From assembly GCF_004382795.1 (NCBI RefSeq), contig NZ_SMSG01000001.1, forward strand, positions 62,001 to 126,000: a stretch of DNA of 64,000 bases, given 5' to 3'. The position numbers and the translations under genes are program-made. Position 1 is the stretch's first letter; every line of letters starts with the position of its first letter. This document shows, piece by piece, positions 10,283 through 13,007 of this stretch. This stretch comes from Cumulibacter soli. Lineage in GTDB: Bacteria > Actinomycetota > Actinomycetes > Mycobacteriales > Antricoccaceae. The notes under the pieces were generated by a model. That model saw nothing but the letters and a program-made list of their open reading frames with translations. It had not been told where the DNA came from and made no database searches.

Positions 10283-10652
10283 GGTGGAGGTGCCGGGAAT
10301 CGAACCCGGGTCCTATGGCGGTTTAACAGGGCTTCTCCGGGCGCAGTGCACGTGGTCTCTACTCGGCCCCAGGATTCATGTGCACAAGATCCTGTGACAG
10401 GCCCAGTCACTGTGAAATGTCCCGCGCGACCCCGTGACCGGGTCGGTTGGTGATCCTCCTAAACGATGCCAGGGTCCGGGCCGGAGGCCTCCCGGTCTGA
10501 CAGACTCGCCTACTGCTTAGGCAGCGAGGGCGAAGTCGCGCTGATTAGATTCGGCGCTTATTGGTTTACGACGCGTGGTTTACGAGATCATCGTCGCCTT
10601 CCTCGGCCCGCTTCACCTGTCGCGACGTCCACAGTCGAGACCGTTCACCCCC
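10283..10652 (-). ncRNA. ssrA: tmRNA (transfer-messenger RNA)
   Basis: Rescues stalled ribosomes together with SmpB. The 5' end GGGGGTGAACGGT (from 10652) pairs with the 3' acceptor arm CACCTCC (10286-10292); a T-arm with GGGTTCGATTCCC precedes it. The tag frame lies at 10517-10555 and encodes AESNQRDFALAA followed by TAA, close to other actinobacterial tags and ending in the ALAA degron. Only CC of the terminal CCA is encoded. smpB lies 5.7 kb upstream on the same strand; in many relatives the two are close. Short reading frames overlapping this region are not genes. Confidence 0.95.
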
Positions 10653-10683: not shown

Positions 10684-10813
10684 GTTTCCCTATTGAGTTG
10701 TCGGTTGATCATCCTACAAGGCCTCAACGACACGCGGCCAGCCAATATTCCTGGCCGCGACGCACGAAGTCCATCGCCCGATCCGGACGCCGGCGGCTCC
10801 ACTCCCGCGCTAG

Positions 10814-10826
10814 GGCGTGTTGCTAA
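10814..10826 (+). repeat. Left terminal inverted repeat of the IS element
   Basis: GGCGTGTTGCTAA, starting directly after CTAG. It pairs with 12032-12044 with one mismatch. Confidence 0.8.
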
Positions 10827-10862
10827 ACCCTTCTGACCGGCTGTTCGACGAGTCTTGAACGC

Positions 10863-11460
10863 GTGTCGCGTGATGTGATCTCGGATGAGGCCTGGGCTGC
10901 GATCGGCCCGTTGTTCCCGAAGATGAAGTCGACGGGCCGGCCGCCGGTGGATCGTCGCACGGTGGTGGAGGCGACGGCGTGGCGGTTCCGGACGGGTGCT
11001 CCGTGGCGGGTTGACGACGAAGAACCACCTGGTCTGCGACGGGAAGGGCCGCGCCCTCGCGTTTATCCTCACGCCCGGGCAGGCAGGGGACACCAGCATG
11101 CTGACCGCGACGTTGAGTGAGATCCGCGTCCAGGGCGCGAGAGGCAGGCCACGGTCAAGGCCGGACAGGGTGCTCGCGGACAAGGGCTACCCGTCGAAGG
11201 CGAACCGAGCCTGGCTGCGAGAGCGCGGGATCGCTGCGACGATCCCCGAGCGTGACGACCAGATCGCCCACCGTCGCAAGCGCCGAGGACGACCGATCGA
11301 CTTCGGTCAGGACCAGCGGGCCCGGTACCGAGACCGCAACGTCGTCGAGCGGTGCTTCAACAAGCTCAAGCAGTGGCGCGGGATCGCGATGCGCTCAGAC
11401 AAGACGGCTCGCAACTATCACGCGGGAGTGTGCCTCGCTGCGACGCTCCAATGGCTGTAG
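10863..11460 (+). pseudogene. IS5-family transposase with internal deletion
   Basis: The first 49 or so codons from GTG 10863 match the transposase N terminus (SDEAWAAIGPLF, VVEATAWRFRTGAPWR). At about 11008 the sequence jumps to the second half in another frame (GGLTTK, then LADKGY near 11180, then NVVERCFNKLKQW near 11345, ending QWL at 11460). The missing middle, roughly 75-80 residues compared with the usual 270-280, includes the first catalytic aspartate region. The second Asp (in ADKGY) and the E-x6-K glutamate remain. The protein cannot be active alone, so the element could only move with a transposase supplied from elsewhere. Confidence 0.88.
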
Positions 11461-11501
11461 TTCGGCCAGGAGAGCCTCTTACGGGGTGGCGGATACGCGG
11501 G

Positions 11502-11954
11502 TCAGGACGGCTCGTTGAGCTTCATGTGGAGCAACGGGTACGGCCGACCAGCCTCGTCCGTCTCGCTGCGACCAACGACCTCGAATCCTCGGTGAGCGTA
11601 GAAGTCTGCAGCCGACACATTCTGTTCGTTGACATCCACCTTGGCGACGCCGCGCTCCGTGATTGCATGGTTGAGAAGCGCCGTGCCGATTCCAGCTCCG
11701 CGTCGCGTCGCGTCAACGAACAGCATCTCCAGATTACTGTCGAGAACACCGGAGAATCCCACCGGCTCACCATCAAGCTCTGCGACCGAGAGGGTCACGG
11801 CCGGGAAGTAGTCAGACTGCAGGCGGCTTTCGATCTCGTCGCGATGAGCATCCGCGAGGAAGTCGTGCGTCGCATCCACCGCGCTGCGCCAGATCTCAAC
11901 GAGCGCCGGGTACTCCGCAGCCCCGGTTGACGGCCGAATACACAGAGCAGGCAC
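11502..11954 (-). CDS. YjaB-like GNAT N-acetyltransferase, carried inside the IS element
   Basis: A small acetyl-CoA-dependent acetyltransferase of 150 residues. It shows the YjaB pattern: SVDATHDFL near the N terminus, EMLFVDATRRGAGIGTALL as the acetyl-CoA-binding motif A (about residues 75-92), then VNEQN...AADFYAHRGFEVVGRSETD near the C terminus. The GTG at 11954 is preferred because GAGGGG lies 8 bases upstream and the length then equals YjaB (147 aa); an upstream ATG at 12014 is possible. It is oriented against the broken transposase and wholly inside the terminal repeats, so it is a passenger gene. The acceptor substrate is not known. Confidence 0.85.
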   Translation of the reverse strand: MPALCIRPSTGAAEYPALVEIWRSAVDATHDFLADAHRDEIESRLQSDYFPAVTLSVAELDGEPVGFSGVLDSNLEMLFVDATRRGAGIGTALLNHAITERGVAKVDVNEQNVSAADFYAHRGFEVVGRSETDEAGRPYPLLHMKLNEPS

Positions 11955-12031
11955 GGTGGGTTCCCCTCGCGAAGACATCATCAGCCCATCATCCCAGGGC
12001 GATGGCCGACGCATACGCAGCGGTCACCTGA

Positions 12032-12044
12032 TTAGCAACACGTC
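12032..12044 (-). repeat. Right terminal inverted repeat of the IS element
   Basis: Reads GACGTGTTGCTAA on the minus strand and is followed by CTAG (12045-12048), matching the left end at 12 of 13 positions. Confidence 0.8.
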
Positions 12045-12089
12045 CTAGGGGCTCACTCCGCCGACGATCCGTGAGGTGCTATCGGCGGC

Positions 12090-13007
12090 TTACGACGAAG
12101 GTAGCGGGGAGACTTCCGACGGCAGGGCTGCGCGGATTGCGCCGGCGATCTCATCCAGCAGATCCCGCTGCACGCTCGTACGCCGCCACACCATCGCGAT
12201 GTCTCGGTGCGGTGCTGGCTCGGCGAATCTACGCAACGCCACACCGGGATTAGGCACCACCGGGTGCACCACAGACAACTGCGGCATCAGCGTGATCCCC
12301 ACGCCGGCGGCAACCATCAACCGCAACGTCTCCAGGCTCGTAGCCTGGAATCCGCGGCGCTCATCCGTCCCCGCTGCCCGGCAGACTTCGAGGGCTTGAT
12401 CACGCAGGCAATGCCCCTCGGTGAGTAGCAGCAGATCCTCCCCCGCCACCTGCGAACTCGGCATCGGCGTCTTGTCGTCGGCCAGCGGATGCGTCGCCGG
12501 TACGGCGAGCAGGAATTCCTCCCGGAACATCGGCTGGACGGCGAGCGATTCGTCGTCGACCGGCATCGCTATGAGCGCCGCATCCAACGTCCCGGCATGC
12601 AGTTGCGACAACAGCACGGGGGTCTTCTCCTCGACCAACAACACCTCGAGATCGGGGAAACTGGCGTTGACGGTCCCGATCACGTGCGGAAGCAGGTAGG
12701 GCGCCAGCGTCGGAAACACGCCGAGCCGAACCGATCCCGCGTGCGGATCCCGCGACTGTCGGGCGAGACTGCGTATCTCGTCGGCGTCCGCCAGAATGTG
12801 CCGAGCGCGCCGCACGACGCGTTCGCCAACGGCGGTGAACAGGACCTGACGCGACCCACGCTCCACGAGGTCGGCACCCAACTCGGATTCAAGTTTGCGA
12901 ATCTGAGTCGACAAAGTCGGCTGGCTGCAAAAACTCGCCTCCGCGGCTCGGCCAAAATGCCGATGCTCGTGGAGCGCTACGAGGTACTCCAGGTCCCGGA
13001 TGTTCAC
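12090..13007 (-). CDS. oxyR: OxyR, hydrogen-peroxide-sensing LysR-type regulator
   Basis: A 305-residue LysR protein. The N-terminal winged HTH (residues 1-60, with [19 protein letters not shown] in part) is followed by the peroxide-sensing region TEGHC-x8-C, cysteines 200 and 209, equivalent to the Cys199/Cys208 disulfide pair of E. coli OxyR. GTG start at 13005-13007 overlaps the ahpF stop by four bases (GTGA), so OxyR is made from the ahpC-ahpF transcript. An OxyR-type box lies upstream of ahpC. Regulator downstream of its target enzymes means activation would raise OxyR as well. Confidence 0.95.

Follow-up and report, generated by a model that had tools for sequence, protein, structure and literature searches.

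The window analysed here, a stretch of 64,000 nucleotides from Cumulibacter soli, contains an IS5-family element at positions 10810–12048 (1,239 bp including the CTAG at each side), which is flanked by a tmRNA gene and by the gene of a LysR-type regulator. This regulator is called OxyR-like here, after an earlier note on the same DNA. The features of the locus are as follows.

10283–10652, minus strand: tmRNA gene, flank (tmRNA search).
10810–10813, no strand: left CTAG, 4-bp target duplication (sequence; the duplication is backed by the empty site of a sister element, not by this copy's own).
10814–10826, plus strand: left terminal inverted repeat, GGCGTGTTGCTAA (end comparison; pattern search of window and genome).
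10863–11010, plus strand: N-terminal transposase remnant, ORFA, with DUF4096, up to the deletion junction (ORF list, Pfam, alignment).
11002–11011, plus strand: junction of a 270-bp deletion between imperfect repeats of 9 bp (alignment to full-length relatives).
11011–11460, plus strand: C-terminal transposase remnant, ORFB, with DDE_Tnp_1; the open frame starts at 10996 (Pfam, identity to Leifsonia ORFB).
11502–12014, minus strand: passenger gene of a YjaB-like GNAT acetyltransferase, 170 aa, running inward from the right end (ORF, Pfam, NCBIfam, YjaB alignment).
12032–12044, minus strand: right terminal inverted repeat, TTAGCAACACGTC (12/13 match to the left end).
12045–12048, no strand: right CTAG (sequence).
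12090–13007, minus strand: LysR-type regulator, flank (ORF list, Pfam).

The two terminal repeats, which the earlier note had described as matched 13-base ends, do face each other, with 12 rather than all 13 bases pairing; with the CTAG included, the inverted-repeat comparison gives 17 nt at 94% identity. In the 64-kb window, the two element ends are the only sites within two mismatches of the 13-mer, and the 3.94-Mb genome has no others within one mismatch of CTAG plus the 13-mer, on which grounds chance ends were rejected. The genome search with the longer pattern returned three further sites with 3 mismatches each, which are regarded as noise because a reversed-pattern control gave 19 genome matches at up to 3 mismatches. 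CTAG is palindromic and, in the window copy alone, could belong to the inverted repeat; its reading as a short target duplication of 4 bp draws on the CTAG at both sides here and on the empty site of a sister element, L273 (see below), rather than on an empty site of this copy. The element is not a composite transposon, in which two IS copies surround the cargo, as it has one end pair and no second copy in the genome. The GNAT gene starts 17 bp from the right end repeat, on the strand opposite to the transposase.

The transposase is of the IS5-type DDE kind, its closest relative being annotated as an IS5 family transposase, and it survives as two Pfam parts, DUF4096 (PF13340, 3.4e-12) and DDE_Tnp_1 (PF01609, 3.5e-18), both over the cut-off. 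We would place the element as IS427-like, a group name based on the passages cited below. Full-length plasmid relatives from Microbacterium (L002), Leifsonia (L003) and Cellulosimicrobium (L004) can be aligned to the left and right of 11010/11011, where they carry an additional 270 bp (L002 and L003) or 269 bp (L004). The imperfect 9-bp repeats at the junction, CGTGGCGGG and CGCGGTGGG, match at 7/9 positions, as would be expected for slippage or short-homology joining. The open frame of the ORFA remnant continues past the junction to 11120, outside the transposase frame, and the ORFB remnant is 90% identical to residues 20–168 of the Leifsonia ORFB. The lost 270 bp includes the site of the frame change from ORFA to ORFB together with the SIDST segment, which, by the usual position of the IS5-type DDE motif, would hold the first catalytic Asp. 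ORFA and ORFB occupy different frames in six full-transposase cargo copies described below and also in those plain copies that have whole matches, and this crossing point is deleted from the window copy. Because the first catalytic Asp, as we place it, is lost, the window element would need a helper transposase. A search of its own genome limited to DUF4096 and DDE_Tnp_1 returned one match each, both within the element. Since the 3.94-Mb genome also holds no second copy and no second end pair, the window copy looks stranded there. The congener G001 does carry an IS of this general type, though a more distantly related one (L012, 1448–2395), with a near whole-length transposase match at about 50% identity and the ends CTAGGGCGTGTCTCCTAA.

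The GNAT protein scores 143.8 bits against NCBIfam NF007807 (cut-off 134), and the closest solved structure by sequence is that of E. coli YjaB (2kcw), whose Tyr117 aligns with Tyr139 of the window protein. The passages on YjaB in PMC6199490 report that it acetylates protein lysines, that the Y117A mutant abolishes the acetylation signal while the protein level is also reduced, and that Y117F lowers the signal at a similar protein level. By analogy, the window GNAT is likely a protein lysine acetyltransferase like YjaB. Among the copies in the window, L044, L045, L046, L048 and L049 (loci introduced below), dN/dS of the GNAT is 0.13–0.29 (NG86) in 15/15 pairs, and the gene is, as judged from these coding sequences, kept under purifying selection. 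Along with the CTAG duplication, for which L273 supplies the empty site, the internal transposase deletion and the intact YjaB-like gene claimed in the earlier note are thus sustained, by the 270 bp absent relative to full-length relatives and by an open 170-aa frame above the family cut-off.

The earlier note had set its passenger reading against an acetyltransferase ancestral to the place beside oxyR, and had proposed to look for further copies and for empty CTAG sites. The GNAT is absent beside oxyR in both congeners examined (G001 and G002), and an ancestral position there was rejected. In G001, the tmRNA and a 94% identical flank extend to about 10712, from where a different sequence of about 0.8 kb leads up to oxyR, and in G002, oxyR lies in a different setting with no tmRNA within 4.5 kb around it. 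An exact empty site for the window copy was found in neither congener, the G001 flank diverging about 100 bp before the left CTAG; for the sister element L273, the site is uninterrupted in 34/37 of that element's own congeners. The search for copies gave none further in the own genome, but it did yield GNAT elements with the same ends in other families as well as sisters with a full transposase. As an aside, the tmRNA at 10283–10652 carries the tag AESNQRDFALAA, and the G001 tmRNA has the identical tag.

Relatives of the GNAT were sought in one genome per species, and the first 42 of 80 loci kept out of 225 were checked for ends. Matching ends adjoin the gene at four of these 42 (L044, L045, L046 and L049), and at the other 38 no end with up to 2 mismatches stands next to it. 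In Pseudoclavibacter terrae (L044), 86% identity to the window over 999 bp takes in transposase, GNAT and right end; ORFA residues 1–73 are absent, and the left end is reduced to about 10 bp. L045, from a Propionibacteriales MAG, is 612 bp long, with both ends (1 mismatch each), CTAG at each side and no transposase; it sits on a 7.3-kb contig, and its host label may be wrong. L046 of Brachybacterium tyrofermentans has CTAG at each side, no transposase and a degenerate right end. In L049 of Prauserella halophila, ORFA residues 1–66, ORFB residues 1–18 and a tail of about 24 bp remain. CTAG is thus found at both sides in three of the five copies with recognisable ends (window, L045 and L046), and the repeats are imperfect in L049 (CTGG/CCAG) and L044 (CTAG/CTGG). 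In Nesterenkonia (L048), a transposase scrap of 49 bp accompanies the GNAT and no ends stand at the gene, and the genome holds six copies of the exact 18-base end CTAGGGCGTGTTGCTAAA, identical to the left end in the window. Rhodococcus marinonascens (L052) carries a related GNAT together with pieces of a transposase and ends of a sister type. A second, heavily decayed GNAT element (L215, G478:C10:41000-43500) stands 6 kb from the better copy on the same P. terrae contig.

Because the GNAT recurs beside matching ends in other genomes and is absent beside oxyR in 2/2 congeners, it reads by these comparisons as cargo of the element. The alternative, an ancestral or neighbouring acetyltransferase next to an unrelated broken IS whose ends bracket it by chance, can appeal to the frequency of YjaB-like GNATs without IS ends in actinobacteria (the 38/42 loci above). 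It is nevertheless very improbable, as the same GNAT adjoins the same ends in four other genomes, the P. terrae homology is continuous from transposase to right end, and the congeners lack the gene; L044, L045 and L049 already contradict it.

A passenger between IS ends with no functional transposase, the plan of a mobile insertion cassette (MIC), is found in the window, L045, L046 and L049. The transposase was, by these alignments, lost more than once, because the deletions in the window, L044 and L049 all differ and L045 and L046 have none left; the loss in the latter two may be one shared event, since their GNATs pair on the tree. In this GNAT tree of 26 selected rows, the window gene pairs with L044 (100/98), and one weakly supported cluster (80/78) takes in six of the seven element-borne GNATs, whose hosts belong to different families, along with L047 and L187, both without a clear end pair; L052 falls outside. 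The element label requires three changes on the tree rather than one, and none of 500 shuffles needed as few. Among the GNAT relatives examined, no copy combining this GNAT with a full transposase was found.

In a class-wide sample of 394 genomes, 25 (own genome included) had matches to the GNAT half, many of them short or weak, and three matching loci checked (L125, L126 and L006) had no ends beside the gene. A sample of 398 genomes of the Pseudoclavibacter family gave 29 with matches, again many short or weak; the eight loci checked there yielded the known P. terrae copy and a doubtful one, L187, with a 4-mismatch end directly beside the GNAT. Viral spread of this GNAT was rejected (16 IMG/VR loci with a best identity of 50%, and no match in phage records), as was recent plasmid spread (best plasmid match 61% identity).

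Spread between families needs a vehicle that crosses between cells, which an IS alone is not, and L048 and L047 carry the GNAT without ends. Both points would suit a GNAT carried on larger vehicles such as plasmids or islands, with the IS ends taking no part in recent movement. This is unlikely, though, given that in L045 and L049 the sequence in common with the window does not continue past the ends or their immediate surroundings, that CTAG stands at both sides in three of the five copies, and that copies occur at two separate places on one Pseudoclavibacter contig.

The 18-base end with CTAG was then used as a search pattern, allowing up to 1 mismatch in 18. Matches were found in 18 of 398 Pseudoclavibacter-family genomes (2 matches for the reversed-pattern control) and in 16 of 396 genomes of the Nesterenkonia order (1 control match), with about 23 genomes common to both draws. 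Among the matches listed, the two draws contain at least 18 convergent end pairs under 5 kb; as the pattern requires CTAG, its frequency in this sample is not independent evidence. Ten of these 18 listed pairs are plain ISs of 930–946 bp, seven assigned by sequence and three by length alone, and six have a full transposase and extra DNA before the right end (L252–L255, L272 and L273). In these six, ORFA and ORFB cover the full tblastn query (L003, whose self-match is trivial), L252 lacking the last two residues, and by sequence these copies retain the functional transposase that the window copy has lost. The cargo and remnant copies, together with two plasmid relatives, are as follows.

L252, full transposase: LysE-type exporter and AsnC-type regulator.
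L253, full transposase: GNAT (Acetyltransf_3).
L254, full transposase: AHSA1 protein.
L255, full transposase: another GNAT.
L272, full transposase: 99-aa ORF of no family.
L273 (G1068:C1:548451-551368), full transposase, CTAG ends: MerR-type regulator and MerA (above the MerA cut-off).
L257 (G850:C1:549054-552224), truncated transposase: MFS-type gene and TetR-type regulator between CTAG ends; the MFS-type gene resembles efflux pumps and scores below their cut-offs.
L256: 708-bp remnant between one end pair.
L003, plasmid, transposase then cargo then right end: EXLDI protein (TIGR04342).
L004, plasmid, transposase then cargo then right end: unnamed protein.

In all eight full-transposase cargo copies (L252–L255, L272, L273, L003 and L004), the extra DNA sits on the same side, after the transposase stop and before the right end. 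Counting against this plan, the 6.5 kb around L002, the closest of the full-length plasmid relatives, contain no right end with up to 4 mismatches.

The mer element L273 is 2,918 bp long with CTAG at each side. Its outer flanks, joined with one CTAG, were compared with 38 genomes of its genus. Its host, G1068, matches the joined flanks in two halves; of the other 37 congeners, 34 align across the join without a break, two match in the left half alone and one does not match. The nine best among the 34 (74–78% identity) were read base by base, and nothing is inserted at the 4-bp site in 9/9, with small gaps a few bases away in L299. The site in those congeners reads AGAG, ACAG or TGAG, not CTAG, and the exact ancestral target would therefore be a reconstruction. 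As judged from this empty site, L273 moved as one unit. On plasmids, the same merR-merA stands beside a tail of this transposase in Rhodococcus pyridinivorans (L292, NZ_CP066854.1; right inverted repeat, no CTAG) and in Citricoccus (L293, NZ_CP039426.1; no end), neither with a clean end pair; L294 has mer and no IS of this type.

Comparison with relatives bears out a non-autonomous, passenger-carrying IS5-family element, as the earlier note had proposed, and supports the view that its reading was too modest, as the window copy belongs, in decayed form, to an IS5 lineage that carries cargo. Such carriage recurs within the lineage, also in copies with a full transposase, which the note had missed.

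By analogy of plan, the best parallel is the IS231–MIC231 system, in which MIC231 presumably keeps the ends without a transposase. IS231 and MIC231 of Bacillus cereus, in the IS4 family, are likewise one IS lineage with passenger members and related cassettes, according to the passages on them in PMC2266710. However, the lineage here has an IS5-type DUF4096/DDE transposase, a CTAG target and actinobacterial hosts, and its cargo lies from the transposase stop to the right end, whereas in the IS231 group it lies from the left end to the transposase gene (PMC2266710). Transporter ISs (tIS) also carry passenger genes unrelated to transposition inside one end pair (PMC3129680, PMC9330008), an arrangement seen here as well, although the window copy, unlike a tIS, is not autonomous. 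The tIS passages in these two papers name no IS5-family member. IS1237/ISLxx6 of Leifsonia, in the IS427 group, shares the transposase type and terminal repeats, with two frames in IS427-type relatives, but IS1237 is 899 bp long and duplicates TAA, whereas the element here has CTAG (PMC2516522, PMC9241763). ISMysh01 of Mycobacterium has CTAG direct repeats as here, but a single frame, and belongs to the IS5 group; for neither IS1237/ISLxx6 nor the Mycobacterium CTAG elements do the passages in these papers mention cargo (PMC2516522, PMC9241763). In the passages retrieved from open-licence papers, no IS5-family cargo example and no IS5-borne actinobacterial mer unit was recognised, in agreement with the earlier remark that such elements are rarely described in this family. 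In plan and function, the lineage is by analogy a tIS where the transposase is present and a MIC where it is absent, here in IS5.

Taken together, the window element is very probably a degenerate transporter IS of the IS5 family (IS427-like) that acquired a YjaB-like GNAT as cargo. Its ancestor would have been a CTAG-targeting IS with a two-frame DDE transposase, which took up a yjaB-like gene in the stretch from the transposase stop to the right end and spread as a unit between actinobacteria. In several lineages, separate deletions would then have broken down the transposase, with purifying selection still acting on the GNAT, and the resulting non-autonomous cassettes could in principle be moved in trans by a related intact IS. 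The window copy would now be stuck, because no related transposase was found in its genome, and would act, if expressed, as an acquired chromosomal acetyltransferase gene.

It is possible, if somewhat doubtful, that the GNAT is instead domesticated between dead ends, the element never having moved in trans after its transposase disappeared. The single copy, the purifying selection and the failure to find a helper in the own genome (DUF4096, DDE_Tnp_1 and end pair) all fit such an account. For L045, however, which has no transposase and yet retains both ends and both CTAGs, movement in trans after the loss is the easiest explanation, and Nesterenkonia combines this GNAT and element scraps with six exact 18-base ends. 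Returning to the transporter IS reading, the contents of the slot seen in the lineage include merR-merA, a LysE exporter, an efflux-pump-like gene and several unrelated acetyltransferases. The lineage is probably a cargo-swapping platform, whose fixed slot takes stress and resistance genes, which moves single units into CTAG-like sites and sheds trans-dependent cassettes, and which has thereby spread a YjaB-type lysine acetyltransferase across several actinobacterial families.

Passenger-carrying ISs blur the boundary between IS and transposon and are easily overlooked, since annotation often goes no further than the transposase. An actinobacterial IS type here carries metal resistance and exporter genes without composite structure, and its smallest forms, of about 0.6 kb and with no transposase, escape transposase-based surveys. 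The 18-base end with CTAG offers a simple signature for a systematic census, and a mobile lysine acetyltransferase, if true, would be an unusual cargo.

As to how cargo enters the slot, L267 (G588) and L269 (G542) each contain an IS copy with a transposase; at a distance of about 0.8 kb stands an end attached to a scrap of another copy in inverted orientation. This arrangement resembles a composite that is turning into a single unit. Collapse of a composite to a single unit is the mechanism we favour for cargo uptake, at roughly even chances, the alternative being one-ended transposition reaching a substitute end. L221 (NZ_CP120713.1, 2074–3728) is a sister IS whose ends read CTAGGCCGTGTTGATC.. 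and whose cargo position is filled by a DUF6226 gene; an IS of the type seen in the window adjoins it back to back.
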